Part shown: positions 1 through 16,680 of the stretch, in pieces
Layout: each line of letters begins with the position of its first letter
Numbering within the stretch: position 1 is the first letter of the stretch
DNA from: Nitratiruptor sp. SB155-2
GTDB taxonomy: Bacteria; Campylobacterota; Campylobacteria; Campylobacterales; Nitratiruptoraceae
Direction: 5' to 3'
Length of the DNA stretch: 64,000 bases
NCBI RefSeq assembly: GCF_000010325.1
Contig: NC_009662.1
Location: 950,501-1,014,500, forward strand
The notes under the pieces: model-generated
Told to the model about the DNA's origin: nothing
The model's database searches: none
The model's input: only the letters and a program-made list of their open reading frames with translations
Made by a program: the position numbers and the translations under genes

Positions 1-235
1 TTCCGCTTCCATCCTCTCTTTTTTTAAGAGGATGGGAAGTGGCATCGTATCCGTTGAAATCTCCGACGACACTTACATACTTTGCATTTGGTGCCCATAC
101 GGCAAAATAGACTCCGGGCTCTTCGTCATATTTCATAATATGAGAACCGAATTTTTCATACAGTTTCGTATGGGTCCCCTCTTTAAAAAGATAGATATCA
201 AAATCGCTAAAACGTGTAACCTCGTAGCAGATCAT
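1..235 (-). CDS. glgB: 1,4-alpha-glucan branching enzyme, N-terminal part (cut by window edge)
   Basis: Only the first 78 codons are in the window. The translation begins MICYEVTRFSDFDIYLFK and continues through a 'YFAVWAPNAKYVSVVGDFN' segment, the N-terminal CBM48/branching-enzyme signature. The enzyme makes alpha-1,6 branches in glycogen. The ATG at 235 overlaps the glgA stop in an ATGA arrangement, so it is the last gene of the operon visible here and is probably translationally coupled to glgA. The catalytic GH13 barrel lies outside the window, so its integrity cannot be judged. Confidence 0.9.
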   Translation of the reverse strand, partial: MICYEVTRFSDFDIYLFKEGTHTKLYEKFGSHIMKYDEEPGVYFAVWAPNAKYVSVVGDFNGYDATSHPLKKREDGSG

Positions 236-1686
236 CGTTTTGTCTCCAGTGCCAGTTCATAGACCCTTTCATACTCTTTGGCGCTTCTTTGCCAATCAAA
301 CCGTTTGCTCATAGCGGTGTGGATCATCTTGCCAATGCCCTCTTTATCATGGAGCCAGGTATCTACAGCCCAGCGGACCGTTCCTACAAGTGCATCTTTG
401 GTAGCATCGTAAAATTTAAAGCCATCTCCCGTTTTTGTTTGAGGCTCATAGTTTTGGATTGTATCATCAAGCCCTCCTACCGCCCTCACAATCGGAAGAG
501 TTCCATAGCGAAGAGAGTAGATCTGATTGAGTCCGCATGGTTCAAAAAGGCTTGGCATCAAGAAAAGATCGCTTCCCGCTTCGATCTTGTGTGCCAGTTC
601 GTTGGAATATCCCACAAAACAGCCAACATTTTCATATCGATTGGCAATATCTTGAAAAAAGCCCTCTGCCCACTTTTCACCGATTCCCAAAAAAACCATC
701 TGAAGAGGCAGATGTACCATCTCGTGCGTGGCCGCAGCTATCAGTTCTATACCTTTTTGCTGGGCAAATCGTCCTACAAAACCGATAAGTGGAAGATCCT
801 CTCTTTGAGCAAGTCCTAATGTTTTTTGTAGATCCTGCTTGCATAGTTTTTTGCCATTCAAATCATCAATATCGTAATTTTTGGCTATAAAGGGATCTGT
901 TTTTGGATTCCACTCATCGTAATCAACACCATTCAAAATGCCAAATAGTTTATATGCGTGAGCTTTGATATGCTCTTGCAGACCAAATCCAAACTCTGGT
1001 GTCTGGATCTCCTGGGCATATTTTGGACTTACCGTTGTAATTTTGTCTGCGTGATAGACAGCACCTTTCATGAGATTGAGTGCTCCAAGCGCTTCCATCT
1101 CGTACATATTGAAGTGTTCCCAGCCAATTCCGAGATATTCAAAAGCTCTTTTGGAAAAGATACCTTGATGCTGGAGATTGTGTATCGTAAAAACAGAAGC
1201 AGTTTTTTGAAAGAATGGATCTTGGCGCAATATGGTATTGAGTAGGATCGGCTGAGCTGCCGTGTGCCAATCGTTAGCATGGATGATATCGGGCCTGAAA
1301 TCCAAAGCTCTTGCAAGTTCCAGTGCCGCTTTGGAAAAGAAAATAAAACGTGCATCATTGTCTGGATAGGAGTAGCCGTTATAGTCCGTATAGAGATTGG
1401 CTCTACCAAAAAAGATCTCATAATCGATAAAATAGATCTCTACACCTTCATAAAGAGTTTTGTATGCAGCGCACCATAAAGTCCCAAGAGGGCCCATATC
1501 CACACCAATATTTCCGATAGCGAAGTTCAAATCTGACTTATTGATCGTATAGTAACGAGGTAAAACCACTTTGATGTTGTGTCCCAACTTTTTGAGTTGT
1601 TTTGGCAGAGCTGCGGCCACATCTGCCAGGCCACCCGTTTTTGCAAATGGTGCCATCTCTGAAGCACAAAAGAGAATCTGTTTCAT
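232..1686 (-). CDS. glgA: Glycogen synthase (GT5)
   Basis: A 484-residue protein of normal GlgA length. It carries the N-terminal KTGGLADV nucleotide-sugar loop (K16-V23) and a C-terminal PSLFEPCGLNQ segment with the conserved acidic residue of retaining GT-B enzymes. It elongates alpha-1,4-glucan from ADP-glucose (or UDP-glucose) in the cytoplasm. Its ATG sits exactly where the stop of a frame-restored upstream ROK kinase would fall, and its stop overlaps the glgB start. No ADP-glucose pyrophosphorylase gene of the usual GlgC type is seen in the window. Confidence 0.96.
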   Translation of the reverse strand: MKQILFCASEMAPFAKTGGLADVAAALPKQLKKLGHNIKVVLPRYYTINKSDLNFAIGNIGVDMGPLGTLWCAAYKTLYEGVEIYFIDYEIFFGRANLYTDYNGYSYPDNDARFIFFSKAALELARALDFRPDIIHANDWHTAAQPILLNTILRQDPFFQKTASVFTIHNLQHQGIFSKRAFEYLGIGWEHFNMYEMEALGALNLMKGAVYHADKITTVSPKYAQEIQTPEFGFGLQEHIKAHAYKLFGILNGVDYDEWNPKTDPFIAKNYDIDDLNGKKLCKQDLQKTLGLAQREDLPLIGFVGRFAQQKGIELIAAATHEMVHLPLQMVFLGIGEKWAEGFFQDIANRYENVGCFVGYSNELAHKIEAGSDLFLMPSLFEPCGLNQIYSLRYGTLPIVRAVGGLDDTIQNYEPQTKTGDGFKFYDATKDALVGTVRWAVDTWLHDKEGIGKMIHTAMSKRFDWQRSAKEYERVYELALETKR

Positions 1687-1762
1687 GGAAGCCTTTCTAA
1701 TAGAATTTTTATCCCCTCCAGTGAGGCATCTTCAAGTTTTGTAAGGGTGATTTCACTATTTT

Positions 1763-2458
1763 TCAATGCGAAGGGGGAGCATAAGCATCGATTTTTTGCT
1801 TTATTTGATCGATTATAAACGAGTTATTCTGTATTACCCCTCCTCCCAGTACTAGTATTTTCGGATTACAGAGGGTCAACAAGGTAGAAGATGCATACAA
1901 GAGAGCTTCTAAATAGAGATTGAACAATGTTTGATTCTCCAAAGAAGGCTCTATTTTGAGATAATTTGCCCACTTTTGTAGACCACTCCCCGATGCAAAA
2001 AGTTCTATACAGTTATCTTTTCCACAGCCACAACGAAAAGGAGCCTTCTTATAGGGGATATGTCCTATTTCTCCCGAGAGATTGCGAAATCCACGAACGA
2101 GGTCTCCTTGCTCTATGGTTGCACTTCCCAGACCCGTTCCGGAGTATAAAGCTGTGATAAAAGATGCATTGAAATATCGTGCTTCCGCCAAAACGGCACA
2201 TTTAAGATCGTTTTCCAAAATATAGGGAAGTCCCAATTTTTTAGGATTGAAAGCGGCATGGATATTGGGTGCAGAGAGTATTTCATTATTAAAAACCTGC
2301 CCGGCATAGGCGATGCCTACATGGGTGATTTTACCTTTTTTGATCAATTTCTCAATAAATGTCTGCAATTCAATTCGATCAAGCCGCTCTTTTCCTTTTA
2401 TGCCATTCATCATTTCCCATCTGATATAGGTTCCTCCGATATCAAGAGCCAGTTTCAT
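1763..2458 (-). CDS. ROK-family sugar kinase (glucokinase-like), C-terminus frameshifted
   Basis: The DIGGTYIRW phosphate-binding loop, the END catalytic segment, SGEIGHI and the CGCGKDNC zinc motif identify a ROK kinase, probably phosphorylating glucose released from glycogen. The ATG at 2458 is preferred because AGGAG lies 5 nt upstream; a longer frame reaches 2482. The reading frame ends early at 231 residues. One extra base in the C5 tract (1773-1777) would continue it as PFALKNSEITLTKLEDASLE to a TGA at 1683, a typical ROK ending that overlaps the glgA start by 4 bp. The break is therefore a real mutation, phase variation or a sequence error. Confidence 0.85.
   Translation of the reverse strand: MKLALDIGGTYIRWEMMNGIKGKERLDRIELQTFIEKLIKKGKITHVGIAYAGQVFNNEILSAPNIHAAFNPKKLGLPYILENDLKCAVLAEARYFNASFITALYSGTGLGSATIEQGDLVRGFRNLSGEIGHIPYKKAPFRCGCGKDNCIELFASGSGLQKWANYLKIEPSLENQTLFNLYLEALLYASSTLLTLCNPKILVLGGGVIQNNSFIIDQIKQKIDAYAPPSH
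1773..1777 (-). repeat. C5 homopolymer at the ROK kinase frameshift
   Basis: On the coding strand five C residues occur where the ROK frame departs from its natural C-terminus. A sixth C would join the kinase to the otherwise orphan frame that ends at 1683. Short G/C tracts are known slipped-strand sites in Campylobacterota, but five is short for high-frequency switching. Confidence 0.6.
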
Positions 2459-3449
2459 ACCATCTCCTGAGAAGCTTTGCAACCGTTTCCGGAAGTACAG
2501 GATTGATCATCGATCCTGTGGAAATCTCAAAACCACCAAGTGTATAGATCCTTGGGGTTATACGAATGAAGAAACGAAAAATGTTTTCTGTTTCATGAAA
2601 AAAGGAGCTGTTTTCAAAGTTTTCATTGAGTGGCGGAAGGTAAAAAACAAGATTAAATGGAAAATCTCCAAGCTCTTTTGATAGTGCATGAAACAGCAAG
2701 AGGATATGTGTTGAGAGCTCTTTAAGTTCATTTTGCGAACACTCATCAAACTTTAGATCTTTTGAGAGGATTACGGTCTCAAAAGCAAAAGAGGAGGCAT
2801 AGGGAATATAACTAAAAAAGTTGTCGCTTTCATAAAGATTTCGTTCCTTTTTTTCTATTTCGAAACTTATAATATCTTCATGGAGCGCTCGTCCATGATG
2901 ATGATAGTATCTTTGGCAGTGTTCAAAAAGAGCAAGTTGCGTTTTTGTCATAATCGGCAAAGCTATGATTTGCGTATGGGGATGGGATTGTGTAGCACCC
3001 GCGCTAATTCCATGATTTTTAAATATCTGTAAAGCAATCATCTTCTGATCTTTGCGAAGATCGATAAAGCGCTCTTGAAGTGTAAAAAGCCACCAAAAGA
3101 TCTCCTCTTTGCTCATGGTATGCAAATTTGCATAGTGATTTGGCGTATCTATTACGATTTCATGTGCTCCATATCCTCCCCACATCTCATTAAGACCATC
3201 TCTTTTGGAAAGAAAAGGAGTCTCTATTTGAACCGCTTTATACAGATTCGCAATCACTCTTGTCTGCCAGGTCCCATTCTCTTTGACCGAGAAAATCTCT
3301 TGAGGTGTAAGCTCCTCATTTCCCGGACAGAAAGGGCATTTTTGCGTGGAATGCATCGAAAGAGAGTGTTGGGGCATGGGTCTATGCAACCGCTCTGGAG
3401 CTATAAGGACATATTCGTTGTGCAAAAGATCGTATCTTATTTCAGACAT
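2442..3449 (-). CDS. galT: Galactose-1-phosphate uridylyltransferase family protein
   Basis: A 335-residue histidine-triad-superfamily protein with the zinc motif CPFCPGNE near residue 40 and the nucleotidyl-acceptor motif HPHTQ, which contains the active-site histidine. GalT exchanges UMP between UDP-glucose and galactose-1-phosphate. In a glycogen operon without other galactose genes it may work on glucose-1-phosphate and nucleotide sugars instead; this is inference. It overlaps the GH57 gene upstream by 13 bp and the ROK kinase by 17 bp. Confidence 0.85.
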   Translation of the reverse strand: MSEIRYDLLHNEYVLIAPERLHRPMPQHSLSMHSTQKCPFCPGNEELTPQEIFSVKENGTWQTRVIANLYKAVQIETPFLSKRDGLNEMWGGYGAHEIVIDTPNHYANLHTMSKEEIFWWLFTLQERFIDLRKDQKMIALQIFKNHGISAGATQSHPHTQIIALPIMTKTQLALFEHCQRYYHHHGRALHEDIISFEIEKKERNLYESDNFFSYIPYASSFAFETVILSKDLKFDECSQNELKELSTHILLLFHALSKELGDFPFNLVFYLPPLNENFENSSFFHETENIFRFFIRITPRIYTLGGFEISTGSMINPVLPETVAKLLRRWYETGS

Positions 3450-5386
3450 AGTTTCATATCCCAGTTGAAGTTTTTCGTAAAGGCAAAAGAAAAAGCGATA
3501 CTAATGCCTTGTTGCGTAAGCTCAAATCCCTTTTCGTTTTGCGATACGGTACGAAGAGGAACCGCATAGATCTGTACCGCTTCATTGAATGAAAAATGAA
3601 GTTCTCTTTTTGTAAAAGGATCCTTGATCTCAAGTTTTTTTGAGAAAAACTCCAATTCGTCACAGCAATATTTTGCATTGATAAGCAGTGTTTCATAATG
3701 GGCGAAATGGAGATTCCACTCGCTGATGTAGAGAAGCTCTTCTGTATATGTTGAGTGAAAATCGATTGAGATTTGTAAACAGTCTGTATCGACAAAATAG
3801 TTCTTTTTCAAAGTGGAGGGATATTTTTTGTCTAGATAGAGGCCTCCTTTGCGCTGGAACTCAAGAGGCTTTTGTAATATAAACGGCTGATTTGCAAAGT
3901 CTCCATACTCTTTGAAACTGTTTTGAAAAAAACTCTGCGTATTGAAGGATGCATCACTGAAATGATCGATTGCCGAATTTTTGATATACCAATCAAAAAA
4001 GAGATTTTTTTTAACCTCCTCACTGATCTTTGGAGCCATCTCATGAATTGTAGTAATCCCTTTTACATCTTTTTGATTTTGCGGTTGGAAAATCTTTTCA
4101 TGATAGGCTTCAAATTTTCTTGTGAGAGTATTTTGAAAATTAAAAGAAGATGCAATATCCAATAATTCAATAATCTGTCCTCCCTGTTTTTCATAGAAGC
4201 GCCAGACGAAGCTATCACGTTTCACTTCAATCTCTTTATATCCATCCATATCTTTGTCGCCAACTTCCATCCTATCATCAAGGCTCTTTTCACACTCGGC
4301 AACGAATCGATAGGCGTTGTCTCTTAGATTTGGCAGATAGAGCCCTCCAAAAATACCATGCCAGAAAACATCGTTTGTCTGCAGTTTATACAAATATTCA
4401 CTCTTTTGTTTTTTTGAGAGATCAAGCATTCGTTTGTGCAATCTGTTGGACTCTTCATATTTGACAAAAAAGTTTCTCCAGATACCTCCTCGGATAAATT
4501 TTATGCCGATTGTCTCAAAGTACTCTTTACCCACTGTTGCTTTGAGCTTTTCAAGTTCAAGAGTATCTTTTGACCGCAGGCTCCACTCTCCCATCTCATA
4601 ATAAGAGACATTGCAAAGATAGGCAAGCCCGTTTGCTCTTTTTGACAGCATAGACTCGAAATGCTCTATTTGTACGCTTTGCAAAACTTTTTGAATGAAA
4701 GATTCCAGCCAACCCTCTTTATAGACCCACTCATATGTATTTGGCCACAGACCAAATTTCTCCGCATCGTCGAACAATATGGCATTTTCAAAGGAGCAGA
4801 TAGCCTCAATGGCGTCATTCACAGGATAAAAAGGGATAGCGTAACGAAGTTTTTGTGAGATTGGAAAGAGGGCAAATCTATTGCCACTCTCTTCACTGAA
4901 AAAGTAACCATCAAGCTCTTCTTTGTCAAAGCCGCTTGCAAGAAAGTGGTAATCATCCACCGTCACATACTCGATGTCACACTCTGTAAAATCCGTTGCT
5001 ACGGAGCTTTCCCATACCCGCTCAGTCAACCAAAGTCCTTTTGGCTTTTTGTGAAACAGTTTTTCGATGTAGTTATTCAATTTTTGAATCTGTACGGTAC
5101 GATCCTCTCGTGGTATGCTAGCAAGCACCGGTTCATAGAATCCACCGGTAAAAAACTCGATGCTTCCTTGCTCATTCAGATACAAAATATCTTCAAAGAC
5201 ATCAGGGTATTTTGTACGGATCTCCTCGAAAAGCCATCCACTGCAGTGCAGAGCAAAACGAAAATCGGGATATTTTCTAAGGGTTTGGAAAAGGGGTCTA
5301 TAACATCTTTTTACTGCATTCTCTACAGCCTCTGGCAAATTGTTTGTGGGTTGATGCATATGGAGCCCAAAATAGAAGCTACTCAT
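3437..5386 (-). CDS. GH57 4-alpha-glucanotransferase
   Basis: A 649-residue protein that resembles the Thermococcus litoralis 4-alpha-glucanotransferase along its whole length. It has the N-terminal HMHQP motif, GFYEPVLASIP, the nucleophile region WLTERVW (E122), the acid/base region FDDAEKFG (about D207), the SEWSLR and NDVFWHG segments and a C-terminal beta-sandwich with IHEM and NQPF. It moves maltodextrin segments between glucan chains. The close resemblance to archaeal enzymes suggests thermophily or ancient transfer. It lies 9 bp after the other GH57 gene. Confidence 0.9.
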   Translation of the reverse strand: MSSFYFGLHMHQPTNNLPEAVENAVKRCYRPLFQTLRKYPDFRFALHCSGWLFEEIRTKYPDVFEDILYLNEQGSIEFFTGGFYEPVLASIPREDRTVQIQKLNNYIEKLFHKKPKGLWLTERVWESSVATDFTECDIEYVTVDDYHFLASGFDKEELDGYFFSEESGNRFALFPISQKLRYAIPFYPVNDAIEAICSFENAILFDDAEKFGLWPNTYEWVYKEGWLESFIQKVLQSVQIEHFESMLSKRANGLAYLCNVSYYEMGEWSLRSKDTLELEKLKATVGKEYFETIGIKFIRGGIWRNFFVKYEESNRLHKRMLDLSKKQKSEYLYKLQTNDVFWHGIFGGLYLPNLRDNAYRFVAECEKSLDDRMEVGDKDMDGYKEIEVKRDSFVWRFYEKQGGQIIELLDIASSFNFQNTLTRKFEAYHEKIFQPQNQKDVKGITTIHEMAPKISEEVKKNLFFDWYIKNSAIDHFSDASFNTQSFFQNSFKEYGDFANQPFILQKPLEFQRKGGLYLDKKYPSTLKKNYFVDTDCLQISIDFHSTYTEELLYISEWNLHFAHYETLLINAKYCCDELEFFSKKLEIKDPFTKRELHFSFNEAVQIYAVPLRTVSQNEKGFELTQQGISIAFSFAFTKNFNWDMKLCLK

Positions 5387-5395
5387 TGAATATCC

Positions 5396-7309
5396 TTATA
5401 CGAACCAGTGGATGGAGTAGTCATTGTCGATCCTTATGTAGAGTCTTGTGGTTGATGGCACGATTTGAAGAAGTTTCTTTTTCTTATAGATTTCTATCCT
5501 AACTTCAAACTCCTTTTTTTTGCAACCATTTTTGTCAATTTCGAATTCAATTATTTCATCTTTTGCCATACTGCTTATTTGGATTTCATCTTCATCAAAA
5601 AAAATCCGACAATCAAGGAGCGCTATATCTTCTCCATCCATTCTAAAAAAGATGGAACTCTCGTTCTCTCCCCAAAAAAGCTTTTGAATGGCAAAATTAC
5701 TCTGCATCGTTGAGGATACTTCCTCATTCAAATAGCCACTATCGAGCCATTCGAAAAAGGAGGTCACTTTCCCATCGATTACAGGATATATATAACCTTG
5801 AGGTTCATTGATCGTAGCCTGCATAGAGTGCGATCCTACAATCGGCACCCTTATATCGTTTGGCGGAGTGATACCAAGATGGGTATAGATTGCCATAAGA
5901 TGCATTCGAAAGAGGGTGTCAAACTCTTGCGAAAACTCTGTAAAGTGTCCATATCCATACCACCAAAACCAATCAGAGGTCTCAGCAAGCAGAAATTGGC
6001 GCTGAACATATGCATCTTTTGAGTGATGCAGAGAATCTCTTTTAGTTTGAAACAGAAGTTCCCATGCCCTGTTTTTCTCTTCATCCCCTATCCATGTATC
6101 AAAATTTCCATAGATCCATGAGCCTGGGGCCAACTTTTTTAATCTTTTTGACTGTAGGGAGGAGGCTTCATCAAAAGTGATGGTCTCGTTGTTTTCAAGC
6201 ATGGCATACAAGGCGTTCAAAAAGTCCCAACCGTTTTTGGGATAGTACTCCCAGGCATTTTCACCATCCAATATGATAAAAAGAGTGCCTTTTTGGGGGA
6301 GTCTTTGCGCAAAATCTTTGACTGCTTGATCGGCTGGGAAATTTTTGTAGACGAAGCCCAAAAGATCGCTTAGTTCATGATCACGAAAAAAGATTTTTAC
6401 ACCTTCAAAAGAGTAGGGACTATATTTGTCACTCTCTTCACTCTTATATAAGATTGCCTCATCTGTCGCTATCCATGTGATATTCTCTTTTTTATATAGC
6501 GCTACGCTTTTTTCATCTACCGCCCCTTCAGCGGGCCAAAATCCTTTTGGGTCTTTGCCGAAAACCGCTTTATAAATCTCTTTTGCTTTTTGTATATGCA
6601 AAACAGCGTCATCTTGTAAAGAGAGGGGGTGCTTTGGCAACGGTATAGCCGGATTTGCCTCTTTTGCCACACCAATATCAAGTAGAAGAGGCAGAATCGG
6701 GTGAGAATAGGGGGTGGTTGAAATCGCTATCTTTTTTTCATCCTGCATTTTTTTATAAAGAGGGAGAATAGATGGCAAAAAAGAAAAGAGTGTATCTATC
6801 AAATGCTCTTTTTCACCTTGGGTAAAACTGCTTTTTCGTAGAAGCGATTGGATCAGAGGGTTTGTATTTCTTAAATAATTGCCACACCAGCATAAAAGAA
6901 AATAGACTTCCAGATCGTTGAGTTCTTCATTATTAAGATCCTCTTTTTCAAACAGTGTAAAAAAGCGATCGTCAAGATCGTATCCCATGGTATGAGGATG
7001 CACTGTTTTACACAGTTTTTGAAGAGTCCGCTTCTCTGTTTGTGTCAATTGATCCGTTTTTTTAAGAAGGAGTCGTATATTTTTGTCACAAGAAGGACCT
7101 TTTTGGATGTAGTCTTGTAGCTGTTCGATGAGTATCGGAGTGAGATTGAAACTCACTTTTACACTGTATTGTGAAACGATATATGGCATATCATAGTAAT
7201 CTTTGATTGCATGCAAAAAAACCCAAGGGAGTGTAAAAAAACCCTTTTCATCCCTATAGTCTGGTTGGTGCATATGCCATAGTATCGCTATCTTCACTCG
7301 TTCATCCAC
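5396..7309 (-). CDS. GH57 family glycoside hydrolase (amylase/amylopullulanase type)
   Basis: A 637-residue protein with the GH57 opening WHMHQPDYRD, a WPAEGAV segment that contains the predicted Glu nucleophile, an ILDGENAW segment with the predicted Asp acid/base, and a C-terminal beta-rich region. The DUF1957-like branching-enzyme type is less likely than the alpha-amylase/pullulanase type because of the YRD motif after HQP. It probably trims glycogen or maltodextrins in the cytoplasm, as no signal peptide is present. Its start overlaps the upstream gene by 16 bp. Confidence 0.85.
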   Translation of the reverse strand: MDERVKIAILWHMHQPDYRDEKGFFTLPWVFLHAIKDYYDMPYIVSQYSVKVSFNLTPILIEQLQDYIQKGPSCDKNIRLLLKKTDQLTQTEKRTLQKLCKTVHPHTMGYDLDDRFFTLFEKEDLNNEELNDLEVYFLLCWCGNYLRNTNPLIQSLLRKSSFTQGEKEHLIDTLFSFLPSILPLYKKMQDEKKIAISTTPYSHPILPLLLDIGVAKEANPAIPLPKHPLSLQDDAVLHIQKAKEIYKAVFGKDPKGFWPAEGAVDEKSVALYKKENITWIATDEAILYKSEESDKYSPYSFEGVKIFFRDHELSDLLGFVYKNFPADQAVKDFAQRLPQKGTLFIILDGENAWEYYPKNGWDFLNALYAMLENNETITFDEASSLQSKRLKKLAPGSWIYGNFDTWIGDEEKNRAWELLFQTKRDSLHHSKDAYVQRQFLLAETSDWFWWYGYGHFTEFSQEFDTLFRMHLMAIYTHLGITPPNDIRVPIVGSHSMQATINEPQGYIYPVIDGKVTSFFEWLDSGYLNEEVSSTMQSNFAIQKLFWGENESSIFFRMDGEDIALLDCRIFFDEDEIQISSMAKDEIIEFEIDKNGCKKKEFEVRIEIYKKKKLLQIVPSTTRLYIRIDNDYSIHWFV

Positions 7310-9000
7310 TCACTTATTAGTTTGCTGTATTTGTCGTGCAGCAATTTTCCTTCCTCTTCGTCACTTGCTTGCAAGAAAAGATTGAGATCTTCAGTATACT
7401 GGTCAGGGATCATCAAAACCCAGTCTGTATCGTTTTCCCAGATTTTAACACCATCAATAGTAGAATGGGGCTTGTTATGGGCATATTCTATGAATTTTCG
7501 CATCATTTTTCCCTTCTTACTCTGTGGACAGGGGATTTTGCACTTTTTATAATAAAAATGTTTTACTTCTCTTTCTATTTTAGAGAGCAGGATATTATGG
7601 CGACTTAAAAGCTCCATAATTTTGAGCGTTGCATAGATAGCATCCCTGTGGTATGCAAATTCCGTAAAGGCAAAGTTACCATCAACAGTCGCAATCAGGT
7701 CATACTGTTTGAACTCTTCCCTTTTGAAATTAAAATATTTTCCTCTGTCGATTTCAATATTCTTAAAATCGTTATCCATCATATCCGGTGCCCAAGATGG
7801 TAAAAAAACTTTATATTTTTTCCCTTTTTGAGTCGCATCGATATCCATCAAACGGAGTACCGCAATGAGCGTATCAACTCTATTTAAGACTTCACAATCA
7901 TCACTGATGAGCGTTAATCGCTGGCCGTGTGGATAGATAAGTACCCCGAGCTGAAAATTCAATGCGGTGACGATACGAGACACATCATATTGGGACTCTT
8001 TGGCATAGTGGGTTATATTTTCCAGTTTCAATCTATCATAATAGGCATTCAATAAAATATTTTCTATCTGGATCTCAGAAAGAATGTGCGGGAAAATCTC
8101 TTTTGTAATACCAAACATGAGATCGATCGCTACTTTGAAATTGCTTCCTTTGATGATTTTATGATCTATAAGCTCTTCAATTTTTTGTAGATACATTTTG
8201 CATGCACTCTTTCTTAAACGATCGTCATCAACCAGTTTTCCCATAGCTTTGTAATCAACTTTTCGAAATTTTTCCGTAAAGTAGTTTTTCTCCACATTTT
8301 TTGCCATTTCCGTATCGAGTCTGTGACCTTCATTGGTATACAATATGATTTCCACGCTGGAAGGATCCTGGATACTTTTGCGAAAATAGGCTCCTGCGTC
8401 AATATGATCATTTGCTCGGATGTAATATCTCAATACTGATGGTGGTATTTCCTGAAGGTCTTCAATATTGACGCCCGTTGCAAGAGTTCCACCATCAAAG
8501 GCACGTTTGAGCATCCTGGATGAATCTTCAAAATCACGACCTATAGCGATGGTACTCCCTTCTGGAAGCAAAGATGCAAAAGCCTCTGCGATTTTACACG
8601 ACATCTCACAACCGATTTCGATATTCGCTTTACCACGTATGACGCCTTCATGAAAGATAGCGTTTTTATATTTCGTCCCCCATACAACATTATTTGTAAC
8701 GATGGCGGCGGGTTCTATCTCCTTATTTGGCCATACGGTCACATCTTGATCAAATGTTGCGAATTTCCCAACATGACACCCCTCGGCCAATACGACGCCT
8801 GCTTTTGCAGTGACCATGTCGTCGATACTGTTGTCGTTACATATAACCGCATTATCAAAAGTACATTTTTTCCCGATCGTAATATTGTTCCAAAGAATGG
8901 AGTTTCTCAGTCTACACTCTGGCCCGATGGAGACATTATTGCCTATGGTTACATTGTGCAGTCTTGTATTTTTCCCGATCGTTACGTTATCGCCGATCAC
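7294..9000 (-). CDS. Left-handed beta-helix plus phosphomannomutase-like region (C-terminal part of a split fusion)
   Basis: The first ~110 residues are hexapeptide repeats (IGDNVTIGKN, VTIGNNVSIG, ITIGKK), followed by a phosphohexomutase-like region (AIGRDFEDSSRMLKRAF). This matches the C-terminal portion of long nucleotidyltransferase-PMM fusions. A canonical TASHNP phosphoserine loop is not visible. The frame is continuous with the upstream gene except for one TAA at 9046-9048. The nearest start after that stop is the GTG at 9000, without a convincing Shine-Dalgarno. It may be made by reinitiation, readthrough, or not at all. Confidence 0.75.
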   Translation of the reverse strand: MIGDNVTIGKNTRLHNVTIGNNVSIGPECRLRNSILWNNITIGKKCTFDNAVICNDNSIDDMVTAKAGVVLAEGCHVGKFATFDQDVTVWPNKEIEPAAIVTNNVVWGTKYKNAIFHEGVIRGKANIEIGCEMSCKIAEAFASLLPEGSTIAIGRDFEDSSRMLKRAFDGGTLATGVNIEDLQEIPPSVLRYYIRANDHIDAGAYFRKSIQDPSSVEIILYTNEGHRLDTEMAKNVEKNYFTEKFRKVDYKAMGKLVDDDRLRKSACKMYLQKIEELIDHKIIKGSNFKVAIDLMFGITKEIFPHILSEIQIENILLNAYYDRLKLENITHYAKESQYDVSRIVTALNFQLGVLIYPHGQRLTLISDDCEVLNRVDTLIAVLRLMDIDATQKGKKYKVFLPSWAPDMMDNDFKNIEIDRGKYFNFKREEFKQYDLIATVDGNFAFTEFAYHRDAIYATLKIMELLSRHNILLSKIEREVKHFYYKKCKIPCPQSKKGKMMRKFIEYAHNKPHSTIDGVKIWENDTDWVLMIPDQYTEDLNLFLQASDEEEGKLLHDKYSKLISEWMNE

Positions 9001-9045
9001 TACCGTATCGATAATCTCAACACTTTTATCTATTTCGCTGTCGCC

Positions 9046-9819
9046 TTACAGATAGAGCGTTCCTTCAGGATATTTGATCACTTTGCCAGGAATTTCAAAC
9101 TTCACTTTTTGTAAAAAGATATCTTTGTGTACTTCCCTGTAGCTCTCTGGATTACCCACATCTCTCCAGTATCCGTGTGCTGTATAGCCTAAAAGATCGA
9201 TTCCTTCTTTCATCAACAGAGGAAAAAGATCTTTGGCAAAGTCAAAGGGTTCCGCTTTTGGAATGTAGTTTAAAATTTCTGGTTCGATAACATATATCCC
9301 AGTATTGATCGTATCGCTAAATACTTCTCCCCAGCTCGGTTTTTCCAAAAATTTCTCGATTTTTCCATCTTCATTGACGATGACCACCCCGAATTGCAAC
9401 GGATTATCCTCAGAAGTCAAGGTAATAGTGAGTTTGGATTCTCTTTTTTCATGAAATTGCAAAATTTTTTGAAAATCAAAATCGGTTACCAGGTCGCCAC
9501 TGACTATCATGAAAGTTGTATCCAGATAATCTCTGGCCATACCTACCGCACCCGCCGTTCCATAGTCTGCATCGGGTAATACGTAGTGGATTTTTACGCC
9601 CCATCTGCTCCCATCTTTGAAATGGTCTTTGATGATTTGGGGTTTATAATAAAGAAGAATCACCACCTCATCGATGCCGACTTTGACAAGCTGCTTTAAA
9701 ACATTCTCCATCATGGGAACGTTCATAACAGGGAGCATCGGTTTTGGAAGGGAGTGTGTGAGGGGTTGGATACGGGTCCCAAACCCTCCGGCCATGATAA
9801 CCGCTTTTATTTTTTTCAT
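9046..9819 (-). CDS. Sugar-phosphate nucleotidyltransferase (N-terminal part of a split fusion)
   Basis: A 257-residue nucleotidyltransferase with the signature [12 protein letters not shown], the PKPMLPV segment, and [10 protein letters not shown] with the metal-binding Asp. It joins a sugar-1-phosphate to an NTP to make an NDP-sugar; mannose-1-phosphate or glucose-1-phosphate is plausible in this operon. It ends in YPEGTLYL-stop, and the frame runs on without shift as GDSEIDKSVEIIDTVVIGDN into the beta-helix gene. Without the stop the product would be about 841 residues, the usual size of the fused family. Confidence 0.85.
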
Positions 9820-10079
9820 GGTTTCACCTTCAAAACGGAATTGGAACTCCCGTAAGGAGAAGGGGTGGTAGGAAGAGTTTCATCAGTTATCCAGATACCA
9901 TCGATAAGATATCCAAATTCATACGTCCCCGCCTTCAGGCGTTTCGTTTTTGAAAAAGATCCATCTTTGTTCTTTTTCATCGGCTCTTCTTTCCAGCCGT
10001 TCCAGCTACCTTTGAGGATCACCTCATCTGCATCCGTGTGCACGATAAACGTCACACTTTTTGGGTTTTTTTTGATCAT
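9816..10079 (-). CDS. Stand-alone CBM48 / glycogen-binding domain protein
   Basis: An 87-residue protein made only of a CBM48 (AMPK-beta/isoamylase N-terminal) module. It has [19 protein letters not shown], an aromatic GWKEEPM binding face and YEFGYLIDG near the end. Such domains bind alpha-glucan chains. As a separate polypeptide it may tether glycogen enzymes to the granule or regulate them; no catalytic domain is attached. It overlaps the nucleotidyltransferase start by 4 bp and follows the phosphorylase-like gene by 3 bp. Confidence 0.85.
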
Positions 10080-10082
10080 CTT

Positions 10083-11732
10083 TTACTCCTTATAGGTATA
10101 CATCTTTTTATAGTACTCATCCGCCATTCTCGTGCTATCAAAATAGTGCAAAATATCTCGCATACCGTTTTTGGCAATCTGGAGCCATTTTTTCGGATTG
10201 TTGTAATACATCGGTAAGATAAGGTTTTCAAGCTTTTGCATCATATGTTCATAATCGAGCCTATCAATCTCCTCTATGGGCAGATTCGGATCTGCATGGG
10301 GGATAACAAAAGCGTTTTGACCATCTTTGGCAAATTCCGCGATCCATCCATCGTCAATAGAAAAATTGATACTTGCATTGACGCCCGCACTCATTCCACT
10401 CGTACCACTCGCTTCTCTTCCCCATCTAGGAGTATTGAGCCACAGGTCGCTTCCTTGCTTAAGCAATTTGGAAAGGCGCAGTTCATATCCAATGAGCACG
10501 GCCACATTTTTGAACTCTTTGCTCATCAGCACAAGTTCATTAAAGGCATCAATAGCATTCGTATCGAAAGGATAGGGCTTGCCTGCCCAGATGATTTGGA
10601 TAGGCGTATCGTTGTTTTGCACAAGATTTCGAAAGCGCTCCATATCCCGGATAAGCAACTTTGGTCGTTTATACTCAGCAAATCGTCTAGCCCACACAAG
10701 GGTACATACATCAGGATCAAAAAGTTTCCCCGTCTGATCCGCCACCTCTTCAAAAAGTTTATGTTTGAGATGTTTTTTTCTGCCAATCAACTGATAATCT
10801 TCATGCTCCTGCATCCAGCTCAGCAGTTGTTTGTCGGCCCAGTAGTTCATATCTTGCGCATTGGTGATACTGACGATCTCGCTTCTTCCCTTCACATGAG
10901 ACCACATCTGGTTGGAAACCTTTTCATGAATCTTCGATACTGCATTCGATCTTTTCGATAATTTCAAAGCACCCACCGTCAAAGAAAAATTTTGCGCATG
11001 GTAATCAAGAAGATGTTGCACCTCCTCGGCGTTCAATCCTGCAAAAAACCCCATTCTTGCCAAAAGGCCGATATCATGTTCTTCATTACCCGCCATTTCC
11101 GGAGTGTGGGTCGTAAATACAAGCCGTTTTTTCACCTCTTCGATATTTTTGTAGCTTTGATAAAGCTCGAAAGCAAGTGGTAGAGAGTGCCCTTCGTTCA
11201 TATGATAGATTTCGATATCTTGTCCAAGAGCTTTGAGTACTTTTAAACCGCCGATACCCAAAACAATCTCTTGTGCGATTCTGGTCTCCTCATTGATATC
11301 ATAGAGTCTATGGGATATTGTCTGACTGAGATAATCGTTTTCAAAGATATCGGTAGTCAGTAAAACAACTGGAGCAGTACCAAAAACCGAACCTGGAAGA
11401 AGATAGGCTTTGACTTTTACAGGTTTATTGTTGATCATAACTTCGACCACGATACCGGTCTCTTGTAAAAAGTAGTAGAATTTTCGTCGAAAATCAACCT
11501 TGAGTGTATTGTCTTCGTATCTGTTTTGATCGTAGTATCCGTAGCTCCAAAGCATGCCAATACCGATAATATTCTGACGAAGCTCGCGAGCACTTCGCAT
11601 ATGCGAGCCTGCTAAAAAGCCAAGTCCACCAGAGTAGGTTTTGAGTGCTTGATCGATGGCAAACTCCATAGAAAAGTAGGCAACACTCTTCTGATATTGG
11701 GGATCGATTTGGTAGTGGTGCAACTTTCTCAT
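10083..11732 (-). CDS. GT35 alpha-glucan phosphorylase-like protein lacking the PLP lysine
   Basis: A 549-residue GT35 homologue with YFSMEFAI, YSGGLGFLAGS, HMNEGHS, FTTHTPE, WARRFAEYKRP and the C-terminal LNTPRWGREASGTSGM segments. The residue after EASGTSGM, where phosphorylases carry the lysine that forms the Schiff base with pyridoxal phosphate, is serine (S448, codon 10389-10391). The other phosphorylase in this operon keeps the lysine. Without bound PLP, phosphorolysis is not expected, so it may be a regulatory or glycogen-binding pseudoenzyme, or use different chemistry. The start overlaps pgi by 4 bp. Confidence 0.85.
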   Translation of the reverse strand: MRKLHHYQIDPQYQKSVAYFSMEFAIDQALKTYSGGLGFLAGSHMRSARELRQNIIGIGMLWSYGYYDQNRYEDNTLKVDFRRKFYYFLQETGIVVEVMINNKPVKVKAYLLPGSVFGTAPVVLLTTDIFENDYLSQTISHRLYDINEETRIAQEIVLGIGGLKVLKALGQDIEIYHMNEGHSLPLAFELYQSYKNIEEVKKRLVFTTHTPEMAGNEEHDIGLLARMGFFAGLNAEEVQHLLDYHAQNFSLTVGALKLSKRSNAVSKIHEKVSNQMWSHVKGRSEIVSITNAQDMNYWADKQLLSWMQEHEDYQLIGRKKHLKHKLFEEVADQTGKLFDPDVCTLVWARRFAEYKRPKLLIRDMERFRNLVQNNDTPIQIIWAGKPYPFDTNAIDAFNELVLMSKEFKNVAVLIGYELRLSKLLKQGSDLWLNTPRWGREASGTSGMSAGVNASINFSIDDGWIAEFAKDGQNAFVIPHADPNLPIEEIDRLDYEHMMQKLENLILPMYYNNPKKWLQIAKNGMRDILHYFDSTRMADEYYKKMYTYKE

Positions 11733-12970
11733 TTGTTTACGAACCTTTCTCTCAGCAATTTTTTGCCAAGTTCCACCCCAGGCTGCTTGTAGGTATCAAT
11801 GCCAAACATCTCTCCTACTACAGAAGTGAGCAGTTCATAATAAGCCATCAACTCACCAATACTCTCTTCATTCATAAATGGAAGAACGATTTTATCGACG
11901 GGAATATCTTGACCTTTTATACTCCGCATCGTTGCCTTGCACTCTTCATTGATGAGTCTATTGAATGTGGAGCCATTGACAAAGTCTGTTTTTGACAAAT
12001 GAGGCAAAGCGATATCCGGAATGGTTAGATCCTCTTCAAAATTATCGATACAGATAAAAGTGATCGTTTTGTCCTGCGGACCTTCCATGACGAGCTGCAA
12101 AAAGGAGTGTTGATCCACCGAGCCTATGTGTGCGATCGGTGTAGGACCTACACGGTTGCCGTTTCGATCTTTTTTGCCAAGCGACTCTCCCCAAAGTTGA
12201 ACATACCATTTGTTAAAGTCTTCCAGTTCATCGGCATAGGAAAAAAGAACGTTCATTCTGTACTTTTGCCAATTTTTATAGATAAAAGCCGCTTTTGTAA
12301 GAATGTGCTCTTCATGAAGCATGAAAAAGCGATCGAACATTGCTTTGGCACCTTGCAAAAAGCTCTGCGTATCGTATCCGGCTATCGTCAAGGGAACTAT
12401 GCCGACGGCACTCATGACAGAAAATCGTCCACCAACATTTTTGGGAATTGCGAAACTCTCGATTCCATACTCGTTTGCAAAAGCGTGAAGAGAAGAGTCA
12501 TTGTCGGTAATAACAAGAATCTGATCATTCTCTTTGTCCAGATCGATTTTGTAGTGTGCAAGAACAGCTTTGAAGATAGAGATTGTCTCAATAGTTCCTC
12601 CCGATTTGGAGACAACAACAAAGAGGGTACCCTCTTTTGGAATCTGCTGGAAATTGTGACGAATCGCTACAGGATCTGGGTTTTCTAAAAAATAGATCGG
12701 CTTGCGATCTTTTTTGTATCTTAAAAAATGGTCTATTGCCTTTGTTCCGAGGGATGAACCCCCTATACCGATAACAACTATTCTCTCAAATTTTTGATCA
12801 AGCTCTCTTTTTTTGATCTCTTCAACTATGAGCTGTGACTCTTCGGGCAGATTAAAATATCCCGTCACGCCATTCTCTTTTTCATGCAGTACAGCACCGT
12901 ATGCGTTTACCATAAGGTTTTTTACATCATTGTCAATTTCTAACGGATAGTCTAAATGGTAGGCATTCAT
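11729..12970 (-). CDS. pgi: Glucose-6-phosphate isomerase
   Basis: A 413-residue PGI of the short bacterial type. It shows the VIGIGGSSLGTKA sugar-phosphate loop, VVSKSGGTIET (the phosphate-binding SGGT) and VGGRFSVMSAVG. It interconverts glucose-6-phosphate and fructose-6-phosphate, linking glycogen to glycolysis/gluconeogenesis. It overlaps pgm by 4 bp and the phosphorylase-like gene by 4 bp, so it is firmly part of the glycogen operon. Confidence 0.95.
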   Translation of the reverse strand: MNAYHLDYPLEIDNDVKNLMVNAYGAVLHEKENGVTGYFNLPEESQLIVEEIKKRELDQKFERIVVIGIGGSSLGTKAIDHFLRYKKDRKPIYFLENPDPVAIRHNFQQIPKEGTLFVVVSKSGGTIETISIFKAVLAHYKIDLDKENDQILVITDNDSSLHAFANEYGIESFAIPKNVGGRFSVMSAVGIVPLTIAGYDTQSFLQGAKAMFDRFFMLHEEHILTKAAFIYKNWQKYRMNVLFSYADELEDFNKWYVQLWGESLGKKDRNGNRVGPTPIAHIGSVDQHSFLQLVMEGPQDKTITFICIDNFEEDLTIPDIALPHLSKTDFVNGSTFNRLINEECKATMRSIKGQDIPVDKIVLPFMNEESIGELMAYYELLTSVVGEMFGIDTYKQPGVELGKKLLRERFVNK

Positions 12971-14556
12971 ATGAGATTCCTTACAATGGTTTTTGCTTCT
13001 TCTTGCAGTCCTTCAAGGTGCTCTTTAGATAAAAAACTTTCTGCATAAATTTTGTAGATATCTTCGGTACCGGATGGCCTTAGGGCAATCCAACCGTTTT
13101 CGGTGACGATTTTCACTCCTCCGACACTCATGCCGTTTACTTCCGTAAACAGCTCTTTTATCGGCTCACCCGCCAATGTTTTCAAACCGATTTTTCGAGG
13201 ATCGATTGATTCTATTTTCTTTTTTATCTCCTCATTTGCAGGTACATCGATACGCTCATAGTAACTTTTGCCAAATTGTGCTTCCAACTCCTGATAGATA
13301 AGTGCCGGATCTTTGATTTTGGTTTTGATTTCCGCGGCTAAAAGCGCCATGATAATGCCATCTTTGTCCGTTGTCCAGACAGTCCCATCTTTTCGCAAGA
13401 AACTGGCCCCAGCACTCTCTTCACCGGCAAATCCAAGCCACCCTTCATACAGACCATTCGCAAACCATTTGAACCCAACCGGCGTTTCATATACTTCCAC
13501 TCCCAAAGCCTTTGCCACACGATCAATCATGGAACTGGAAACAAATGTTTTTCCAATCTTGAGGTTTTCTGGCCATTGACGATTGGTAAAGAGATACCAT
13601 ATCGCCACACTCAAGAAGTGGTTTGGATTCATTAGCCCGCCAACAGGAGTAACGATGCCGTGGCGGTCTCCATCGGTATCATTCGCAAAGGCTAGATCGT
13701 ATCTATCTTTTATCTCAAGCAAAGAGGCCATAGCGAAGGGGCTGGAACAGTCCATTCGGATCTTTCCGTCATGATCGAGCGTCATGAAGGAGAAACGGTA
13801 ATCAAGATAGTCGTGACGAAGATCCATCTTCAGACCATAATGCTCCTTGATCTTTCGATAGACCTGCATGGTAGAGCCTCCAAGAGCGTCTGCACAAAGC
13901 TTTAGTCCCCCTTTACGGATCCCTTCCATATCCACTATCTCTTTCAAAGCCTCTACATAGGGAACGATGAAGTCCTCTTGTTTGATATGTGCTTTTTTTA
14001 AAGCATCTTCATAGTCGACTGTTTCGTAGTTTTGGTTTTTCAATATCTCATTTGCCTCTTTTTCGATGATCGAGGTCACATCCGTATCGGCCGGACCCCC
14101 ATGTGGAGGATTGTATTTGTAACCTCCATCCTCCGGTGGATTGTGTGAAGGCGTCAAAACGATACCATCGCACTTTTTGCCACTTCTGTTTTTCTCCAAA
14201 ATCGTAAACGACACAACAGGGGTAGGGGTGAACTTGTCGGTATGGATCACTTCAATCCTGTTTGCTGCAAATACTCGTAACGCACTCATCTTTGCTGGAG
14301 TGGAGAGGGCATGGGTGTCGATTCCTATAATGATTTCTTTGGTATCTATCTTTTTTTTGTAGTTGCAGATTGCCTGAGATATAGCAAAGATATGCTCTTC
14401 ATTGAAGCTACGATTCTCGGCACTTCCTCGGTGCCCACTTGTACCAAATTTTACAGGAGAAAGATCTTTTTTGAGATAAAAATATTCGCTCACCAGTTTT
14501 GCCGTATCTATCAAAATATCTTTGGGGGCTTTCTTGCCCGGTATCAGACTGTTCAT
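12967..14556 (-). CDS. pgm: Phosphoglucomutase (alpha-D-glucose phosphate-specific)
   Basis: A 529-residue alpha-phosphohexomutase. It has KFGTSGHRG, the phosphoserine loop TPSHNPP (Ser137), the metal loop DTDGDRHG, the sugar loop GEESAGASF and the phosphate loop RPSGTEDI. It interconverts glucose-1-phosphate and glucose-6-phosphate, sitting between phosphorylase and isomerase both in the pathway and in the operon. The start overlaps the glgP stop by 4 bp. Confidence 0.96.
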   Translation of the reverse strand: MNSLIPGKKAPKDILIDTAKLVSEYFYLKKDLSPVKFGTSGHRGSAENRSFNEEHIFAISQAICNYKKKIDTKEIIIGIDTHALSTPAKMSALRVFAANRIEVIHTDKFTPTPVVSFTILEKNRSGKKCDGIVLTPSHNPPEDGGYKYNPPHGGPADTDVTSIIEKEANEILKNQNYETVDYEDALKKAHIKQEDFIVPYVEALKEIVDMEGIRKGGLKLCADALGGSTMQVYRKIKEHYGLKMDLRHDYLDYRFSFMTLDHDGKIRMDCSSPFAMASLLEIKDRYDLAFANDTDGDRHGIVTPVGGLMNPNHFLSVAIWYLFTNRQWPENLKIGKTFVSSSMIDRVAKALGVEVYETPVGFKWFANGLYEGWLGFAGEESAGASFLRKDGTVWTTDKDGIIMALLAAEIKTKIKDPALIYQELEAQFGKSYYERIDVPANEEIKKKIESIDPRKIGLKTLAGEPIKELFTEVNGMSVGGVKIVTENGWIALRPSGTEDIYKIYAESFLSKEHLEGLQEEAKTIVRNLI

Positions 14557-16649
14557 TCTTCCCCTATCTTGTCATAAAATTTGTTTTTGTACTCTTTCAT
14601 CATTCTTCGTGCGCAAAAATGTGGTGCTACACTTTTGATGGCTTCTTTCATCATTTTCGTCCATTCCGATGGGATCCCGTTTTCATCTTGATCGTAATAG
14701 AGTGGAATAATTTCGTTTTCCAAAAGATCATACAGTTCATTTGCATCCTTCGCATCATCGCTTGGATCCACGCCAAAAGTCCAGCCATTTTTGCCGTTAA
14801 ACCCTTCTACCCACCATCCATCTTTAGTCGAGCAGTGCAAAACTCCGTTTATGGAGGCTTTCATACCGCTGGTCCCGCAGGCTTCCAGAGGGAGTCTTGG
14901 ATTATTGAGCCAAACATCACATCCTTTGACCATATATTTTGCAAGCTCCTCGCCATAATCTTCTATAAAAGCGATCCTGCCTTGAAACCTCGGATTTTTT
15001 GCCACATTGAAGATCTTTTGGATAATTTTTTTTCCAGGAATATCTGCCGGATGGGCTTTACCTGCAAAGATAATCTGAATAGGCTCTGAAGGATCATTGA
15101 CAATCTTTTCAAGTCTTTCAAGATCATACAGTATCAGATCAGGACGTTTGTATTCTGTCATTCTTCTTGCAAAACCGATGGTGAGGACTTCTGGATCGAG
15201 CATCACACCTTCTGCCAAAAGCACCATAGGATCGGTTCCGCCAGCCGACCATTTTTTACGTCCCTTCTCTTTGATGAAATTGAATAGATCATATTTGTTT
15301 TGCATATGCATCTGCCATAAGAACTTTTCATCGATATCATCAACTTTAAACCAGATGTCGGGATCATCCTGAAATTCGCACCATTCACTCCCAAGTGTCT
15401 TATCGAGCTCTTTTTCCAAATCACCATCCATCCACGTACCCAGATGTACTCCATTGGTTACTGCATCAATCTGGGCATTTTGCTCTTTTAATACTTGTTG
15501 CCAAATCTTTGTAGCGACTTGCTGATGCTTTTTACTTACACCGTTTTTATATTCGCAAAGTTTCAAAGCCAGTACGGTCATGTTGAACCCATTTGATGGA
15601 TTGGCAGGATCGATACCGAAGGAAAGGAGATCGTTTATATTGATATTTAGTTTCTTTGCATACTCTCCAAAATATTTCCCTACCATATCAAATCCATAAA
15701 CATCCGTTGCAGCCATCAACGGTGTATGAGTCGTAAATATGGAACTTTTTTTCACCTTTTCTACTGCATCTTTAAATTCGAGTTTTTCATTTTCCATAAA
15801 GTATCGAAGTCTTTCTATTAAAGCGAAAGCCGGATGCCCTTCATTCAGGTGGAGAATGGAAAACTCAATTGCGAGTCTTTCTAATACCGCATGACCTCCT
15901 ACACCCAAAACAATTTGCTGCCTGAGTCTTTGATGCATATCGGATGTGTAAAGACGGTAGCTGATCATTCGATCCCAGGGATCGTTTTGTTCGATATCTG
16001 TATCGAGAAGATAGAGGCTCACGCGTCCAACATTGACCCTCCATACAGAAACGTAGACTGCTGGAGTGATTAAAGGAACTTGAATGGTCAAATGATTCCC
16101 TTTTTCATCAATAACCTTTTCTATCGGAGCGATCTCTTTTTCGATTTTTTCATTTTCTCCTTTTTGCCATCCATCACTTCCAATCACCTGATGCACATAT
16201 CCACCCGGATACATGAAACCTATGCCCACCATAGGTAGATTCATATCGCTTGCCTCTTTAAGGATGTCTCCGGCCAAAAATCCAAGTCCTCCAGAATAGA
16301 TAGGGAGGGATCTGTGTAGACCATATTCTGCACAGAAATAGGCTATCGTTTGGGATGAGACACATCGATTTTGTATTTGCATATACTGTTTAAAAAGTGC
16401 ATACACATAATGGTATTCATTTATAAAATTTTCATCTACAAGAAGCTTTTCGTAATCTTTTTTTGAAAGTGAACGCAGGAGTTTGATAGGATTGTGGACG
16501 CTCTCTTTCCAAAGATAGGCATCTATCGTTCGAAAAAGTCGTCTGGCTTTTGGGTTCCAGCTCCACCAAAGATTGAGTGCGATCTCTTGGAGTCCTTCGA
16601 GTTCTTTTGGGAGATTCGGAATTCGAATAGATTGCGTGGGGTCGTTCAT
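14553..16649 (-). CDS. glgP: Alpha-glucan (glycogen) phosphorylase
   Basis: First gene of the glycogen operon. The 698-residue protein belongs to the distant alpha-glucan phosphorylase type: N-terminal DUF3417-like LWWSWNPKARRLF, YFCAEYG, YSGGLGFLAGD, HLNEGHPAF, FTTHTPL, ARRMTEYKRP, and LEACGTSGMKASING with the PLP lysine intact. It releases glucose-1-phosphate from glycogen. A longer frame starts at 16676, but the ATG at 16649 is chosen: AAGGAAAC lies just upstream, and a start at 16676 would fall inside the -10 hexamer at 16675-16680. Confidence 0.95.
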   Translation of the reverse strand: MNDPTQSIRIPNLPKELEGLQEIALNLWWSWNPKARRLFRTIDAYLWKESVHNPIKLLRSLSKKDYEKLLVDENFINEYHYVYALFKQYMQIQNRCVSSQTIAYFCAEYGLHRSLPIYSGGLGFLAGDILKEASDMNLPMVGIGFMYPGGYVHQVIGSDGWQKGENEKIEKEIAPIEKVIDEKGNHLTIQVPLITPAVYVSVWRVNVGRVSLYLLDTDIEQNDPWDRMISYRLYTSDMHQRLRQQIVLGVGGHAVLERLAIEFSILHLNEGHPAFALIERLRYFMENEKLEFKDAVEKVKKSSIFTTHTPLMAATDVYGFDMVGKYFGEYAKKLNININDLLSFGIDPANPSNGFNMTVLALKLCEYKNGVSKKHQQVATKIWQQVLKEQNAQIDAVTNGVHLGTWMDGDLEKELDKTLGSEWCEFQDDPDIWFKVDDIDEKFLWQMHMQNKYDLFNFIKEKGRKKWSAGGTDPMVLLAEGVMLDPEVLTIGFARRMTEYKRPDLILYDLERLEKIVNDPSEPIQIIFAGKAHPADIPGKKIIQKIFNVAKNPRFQGRIAFIEDYGEELAKYMVKGCDVWLNNPRLPLEACGTSGMKASINGVLHCSTKDGWWVEGFNGKNGWTFGVDPSDDAKDANELYDLLENEIIPLYYDQDENGIPSEWTKMMKEAIKSVAPHFCARRMMKEYKNKFYDKIGEE

Positions 16650-16674
16650 TTCGTTTCCTTTAAAAATCAAATCC

Positions 16675-16680
16675 ATTATA
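16675..16680 (-). promoter_or_regulatory. Predicted -10 box of the glycogen operon
   Basis: TATAAT on the minus strand, 25 bp upstream of the chosen glgP ATG. The region further upstream is very A+T rich, as is usual for Campylobacterota promoters, which rely little on a -35 box. All genes from glgP to glgB follow with gaps of no more than about 76 bp or with overlaps, so this could drive the whole operon. Confidence 0.55.

Follow-up and report, generated by a model that had tools for sequence, protein, structure and literature searches.

The GT35 protein P0001 of Nitratiruptor sp. SB155-2 has serine in place of the lysine that binds pyridoxal phosphate (PLP), and its aligned homologues from Campylobacterota and Bacteroidota all lack that lysine as well. 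We labelled this lysine-less GT35 subfamily P35S; P0001 is its member in the window, i.e. the whole stretch of 64,000 nucleotides that was analyzed, which belongs to a genome of a single contig of 1,877,931 bases. An invariant PLP lysine is regarded as a hallmark of glycogen phosphorylases. In these enzymes PLP acts through its phosphate, and the reason for the covalent bond has long been an open question. We infer that P0001 is a working alpha-glucan phosphorylase that would hold PLP by another lysine, Lys425 (most likely), or non-covalently, and assign this reading a probability of roughly 0.55. For the lineage, we see about even odds that it moved its PLP-anchoring lysine from the Lys680 position (rabbit numbering) to Lys425 or dropped PLP, and yet is the sole GT35 in most of its genomes. 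A natural subfamily without the PLP lysine makes the question of why the covalent bond is kept directly testable; P35S could also show how PLP is acquired or lost in GT35 as compared with nucleotide-sugar glycosyltransferases, and the automatic glgP annotation hides possibly different cofactor chemistry. No description of a Lys-less GT35 subfamily or of a PLP-independent phosphorylase was found in the literature searched (open-licence papers), where the missing lysine of this already annotated family appears to have gone unremarked.

The P0001 gene and its product

10083..11732, minus strand: P0001 (P35S), GT35 / alpha-glucan family phosphorylase homologue, 549 aa, short form without DUF3417 (profile matches and model)
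10389..10391, minus strand: Ser448, at the position of the PLP Schiff-base lysine (rabbit Lys680, E. coli MalP Lys646; translation and alignment)
14553..16676, minus strand: canonical GlgP paralogue, DUF3417 plus GT35, with Lys606 (profile match)

Translation of the minus strand gave a frame open over the full length of P0001, in which codon 448 is AGT (Ser, plus-strand positions 10391-10389) within the motif NTPRWGREASGTSGMSAGVN (EASGTSGMS). The first-pass annotation had reported this serine in place of the PLP lysine, together with an intact EACGTSGMK in the GlgP paralogue, and both were confirmed, Lys606 lying in EACGTSGMKASING (we place the paralogue start at 16676; the ATG at 16649 is an in-frame alternative). 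P0001 scored above the cutoffs of the GT35 family models TIGR02094 (417.6 bits, cutoff 191.7, E 9.7e-125, profile search) and PF00343 (40.7 bits, cutoff 27, Pfam), and the PLP lysine that ends EA[SC]GTxxMK in the family is absent (Ser448). PF00343 was the only Pfam match at E<=1e-3, without the PF08323 of GT5 glycogen synthases. The best PDB matches of the AlphaFold model (pLDDT 88.7, pTM 0.87) were the glycogen phosphorylases of Segatella copri 9l6i and 20yr (TM 0.87-0.89), followed by E. coli GlgP and MalP; the 50 PDB matches listed were all phosphorylases, consistent with a predicted GT-B phosphorylase fold. RefSeq names the P35S members "alpha-glucan family phosphorylase, glgP".

The TIGR02094 enzymes, such as those of Segatella copri, are alike in fold at ~28% identity and share the glycine loop, RRFAxYKR and EASGTSG motif with P0001, whereas P0001 lacks the PLP lysine and DUF3417, gains Lys425, Ser421 and Glu417, and is ~150-300 residues shorter. 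With E. coli MalP and GlgP and rabbit muscle glycogen phosphorylase, P0001 shares the fold and the equivalent glucose, phosphate and PLP-phosphate residues at ~15-18% identity (structural alignment), but it is ~250-300 residues shorter and has no counterpart of rabbit Lys680 or MalP Lys646. The plasmid GT35 of Simkania, Methylophaga and Pseudorhizobium (547-564 aa, annotated glgP) are of the same length class as P0001; unlike P35S, these short proteins have retained the PLP lysine, and their residue at position 425 is not Lys.

Conservation and age of the substitution

Homologues were collected from GTDB genomes, 298 Campylobacteria genomes and 296 Bacteroidota genomes. Among the 102 aligned P35S homologues, the PLP-lysine column holds Thr in 59, Ser in 38, Ala in 5 and Lys in none (Campylobacterota: Ser 35, Thr 11, Ala 1; Bacteroidota: Thr 48, Ala 4, Ser 3), and Lys occupies it in 26/26 other bacterial GT35 proteins aligned; Ser448 is therefore beyond chance. 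Lys is also kept in the plasmid GT35 of Simkania, Pseudorhizobium, Methylophaga, Stanieria and Phocaeicola, most of them from other phyla, and Thr is found in the plasmid-borne P35S members of Runella and Pontibacter. When 86 proteins were placed in a tree with E. coli MalP and GlgP as the root, P35S formed one clade (SH-aLRT 100) with a long stem of 1.56 changes per site, nested among Lys-bearing GT35. This agrees with a single loss of Lys, although it is uncertain which group is the exact sister of the clade. Judged from these sequences, the Lys-less branch is ancient and spans two bacterial phyla, Campylobacterota and Bacteroidota.

The annotation had argued that the substitution was not simple decay and had named as its refutation sister strains that keep Lys. 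We ran the orthologue alignment and found the opposite, since same-genus orthologues at 87-93% identity carry Ser, Thr or Ala, as do all other aligned homologues. Moreover, comparison with the sister species G029 gave a dN/dS of 0.040/0.85 = 0.047 for P0001 and 0.050/0.98 = 0.051 for canonical GlgP of the same species pair, values that indicate purifying selection. The argument against decay was thus borne out by a substitution conserved over two phyla, a dN/dS of ~0.05 and the retention of every tested active-site residue. A recent loss of function in strain SB155-2, whether by mutation, decay or sequencing error, could be suspected from the in-frame stop that a neighbouring gene has in the window genome, but it was ruled out by the orthologue alignment together with the dN/dS, and its probability is negligible.

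Retained active-site residues

11619..11633, minus strand: Ser34-Gly-Gly-Leu-Gly38 glycine loop (conserved in alignment)
10668..10688, minus strand: Arg349-Arg350...Lys355 (RRFAEYK), PLP-phosphate and substrate-phosphate site; R349, R350 and K355 invariant (MalP equivalents K534, K540)
10401..10415, minus strand: Glu440-Ala-Ser-Gly-Thr444, glucose O3 and PLP-phosphate loop (conserved in alignment)

The substrate and PLP-phosphate residues of GT35 are present in P0001 and 98-100% conserved in the alignment of 102 P35S: Gly loop 34-38, H209, N291, R349, R350, K355, K385, Y416, E440 and T444. We take their rabbit counterparts to be G134-135 (Gly loop), H377, N484, K568, R569, K574, K608, Y648, E672 and T676, respectively. 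The rabbit K568 column is Arg both in P35S and in the 26 canonical bacterial sequences. In E. coli MalP, K646 carries PLP and K534 and K540 help to coordinate its phosphate, with K554 likewise listed (PMC11046441). The P35S equivalents of K534 and K540 are R349, shared with canonical bacterial relatives, and K355, and the K554 column is variable in both P35S and canonical GT35. GlgA (GT5), which is separately encoded, shares the GT-B fold, and its profile comparison with P0001 indicated remote GT-B kinship: R350 and K355 coincide with the R and K that bind phosphate in GlgA, whereas R349 and T444 stand opposite Gly and Leu.

Lys425 and the remodelled pocket

10458..10460, minus strand: Lys425, candidate replacement anchor (Lys in 102/102 P35S, alignment)
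10458..10484, minus strand: helix face Glu417 / Ser421 / Lys425 (i, i+4, i+8), each 102/102, aligned to rabbit Arg649, Ala653 and Ile657

Four columns (31, 84, 319 and 425) are Lys in at least 97% of P35S and seldom Lys in canonical relatives, and 425 is the sole one that is Lys in 102/102 P35S but neither Lys nor Arg in any of the 26 canonical GT35 (Val 22, Thr 3, Ile 1; Ile in E. coli MalP and GlgP). Tyr416 and Glu440 are 24 residues apart in P0001, the paralogue and MalP without any gap, so the alignment register of Lys425 is firm. In the model, Lys425 and Ser421 lie within a predicted helix (418-427) and Glu417 at its start; the Ser421 column is Ala or Gly in canonical GT35. Rabbit Arg649, Ala653 and Ile657 presumably follow Tyr648 beside the PLP ring, as in phosphorylase b geometry, and the Glu417/Ser421/Lys425 face should accordingly be oriented to the ring. 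From the alignment, the predicted helices and this geometry, we propose a shift of the anchor lysine from 448 to 425. In a docking paper (PMC11428413), the residues given for a docked ligand include Arg649 and Val567 next to Gly135/Thr676/Gly677, which lends slight support to placing Arg649 and Val567 near the cofactor site. Further pocket switches relative to canonical GT35 (A292-Q293 for G-V, P386-Y387 for A-H, V346-W347 for G-F, and also S43) indicate that the surroundings of Lys425 were rebuilt too; the three paired changes could mean a different ligand.

Gene neighbourhood

232..7309, minus strand: two GH57, GalT-like, ROK kinase and glycogen synthase GlgA (GT5), the rest of the glucan cluster
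9046..9819, minus strand: sugar-phosphate nucleotidyltransferase half of a normally fused ~840-aa protein (profile match)
9822..10079, minus strand: single-domain CBM48 (AMPK1_CBM), 86 codons (Pfam E 1.6e-15), starting 3 bp downstream of P0001
11729..12970, minus strand: glucose-6-phosphate isomerase (Pgi), overlapping the P35S start by 4 bp (profile match)
12967..14556, minus strand: phosphoglucomutase (Pgm; profile match)

The glucan cluster of the window, GlgA included, extends over 232-16676. In Campylobacterota, Pgm, Pgi and P35S usually come in this order and are followed by either phosphofructokinase or CBM48, by the nucleotidyltransferase/PMM fusion and by GH57 enzymes; pyruvate kinase adjoins P35S in one Campylobacterota group, and GlgA with a ROK kinase in another. 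These neighbours form a glucan-to-glycolysis route, which fits phosphorolysis. Bacteroidota P35S neighbours vary and include universal stress proteins, and a glycogen cluster was not found at the Bacteroidota loci examined. The lone CBM48 gene described in the annotation does start 3 bp downstream, at 10079, and the suggested link to P0001 gained modest support: a CBM48 gene lies within three genes of P35S in 13 Campylobacterota loci (some of which are the window itself) but was not seen near P35S in Bacteroidota loci. In this CBM48, which is of the AMPK-beta type, the Asn and the two aromatic positions that form the glycogen site of AMPK appear to be conserved, and the position matching the glycogen-site Lys is Gly in close relatives. 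At 7294-9819 (minus strand) of the window, the ~840-aa nucleotidyltransferase/hexapeptide/phosphomannomutase-like fusion is split by one in-frame TAA at 9046-9048, and the gene reads through without a stop in same-genus relatives.

Distribution among genomes

P35S was found in 37/298 Campylobacteria genomes. A strong GlgA match was present in 43/298, including 37/37 P35S carriers with one or two GlgA each; five of the six others have canonical GlgP only, and in the sixth (G209) no GT35 of either type was detected. P35S is the only GT35 in 27/37 of these carriers, and 10/37 also have canonical GlgP. Among Bacteroidota, P35S occurred in 33/296 genomes (two of them with two copies), and canonical GT35 was detected in 0/33 of these and in well over half of the remaining sampled genomes. 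P35S is thus the only GT35 in 60/70 carrier genomes checked, which are phylogenetically related so that co-occurrence counts are not independent events, and it apparently replaces the usual enzyme in many genomes. The TIGR02094 search picks up E. coli-type enzymes in the control set, and canonical GT35 would therefore have been detected. GlgA was always present in the carrier genomes checked, which weakens the idea of P35S as a glycogen synthase replacement.

Interpretation of P35S function

As P35S is often the only GT35 of its genome and has gained an invariant lysine close to the lost one, it is probably an active enzyme with another mode of cofactor binding rather than a dead regulator. 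P35S would phosphorolyse storage alpha-glucan to glucose 1-phosphate, which would then feed phosphoglucomutase, glucose-6-phosphate isomerase and glycolysis. Its active site would still use the PLP phosphate, but no Schiff base would form at the usual position; the cofactor would most likely be anchored by Lys425 of the adjacent helix, with Glu417 and Ser421 completing a remodelled pocket for the PLP ring, and purely non-covalent PLP would be the alternative. Counting against this phosphorylase reading are the long stem, which also fits a change of reaction, the paired pocket changes, and the location of Bacteroidota P35S outside glycogen operons.

The main rival explanation is a PLP-free GT35 whose pocket holds another ligand, e.g. 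NDP-glucose or a second phosphate, bound by Lys425; the NDP-glucose version would take the enzyme back to a glycosyltransferase state, the presumed origin of GT35. We consider it unlikely, although the pocket around the ring has been remodelled, the operon in the window includes a nucleotidyltransferase gene, and the PLP lysine corresponds to the second E of EX7E, the motif by which other retaining GT-B enzymes contact the ribose of the nucleotide. Replacement of the nucleotide by PLP in proto-GT35 has been proposed in a review (PMC11046441). However, R349 and T444 are invariant in P35S, unlike GlgA, which argues that a PLP-like phosphate site is retained; in addition, Campylobacteria carriers already possess GlgA, and the P35S gene context is largely catabolic. 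The annotation suggested a pseudoenzyme that regulates or targets glycogen metabolism, i.e. a non-catalytic glycogen-binding or scaffold protein, and this we regard as quite unlikely. The loss of a textbook essential residue, the adjacent CBM48 gene in Campylobacterota and the canonical GlgP in the same operon of Nitratiruptor-type genomes speak for it, but a non-catalytic protein need not keep the tested glucose, phosphate and PLP-phosphate site residues at 98-100%. Regulation of GlgP is not supported either, because the partner is usually missing (no canonical GlgP in 27/37 Campylobacteria and 33/33 Bacteroidota carriers).

Additional loci

P35S is plasmid-borne in the Cytophagales Runella rosea and Pontibacter actiniarum (L194, L195), and the gene next to it on the Runella rosea plasmid encodes a pyridoxamine 5'-phosphate oxidase family protein. 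In a same-family genome without GlgA or P35S, canonical GlgP is broken by several stops (L190, G052:C1:456000-459000), as if the glycogen pathway had been lost. In G142, the full gene is immediately preceded by a partial duplicate of the P35S N-terminus (~48 aa; L076:1199-1330).
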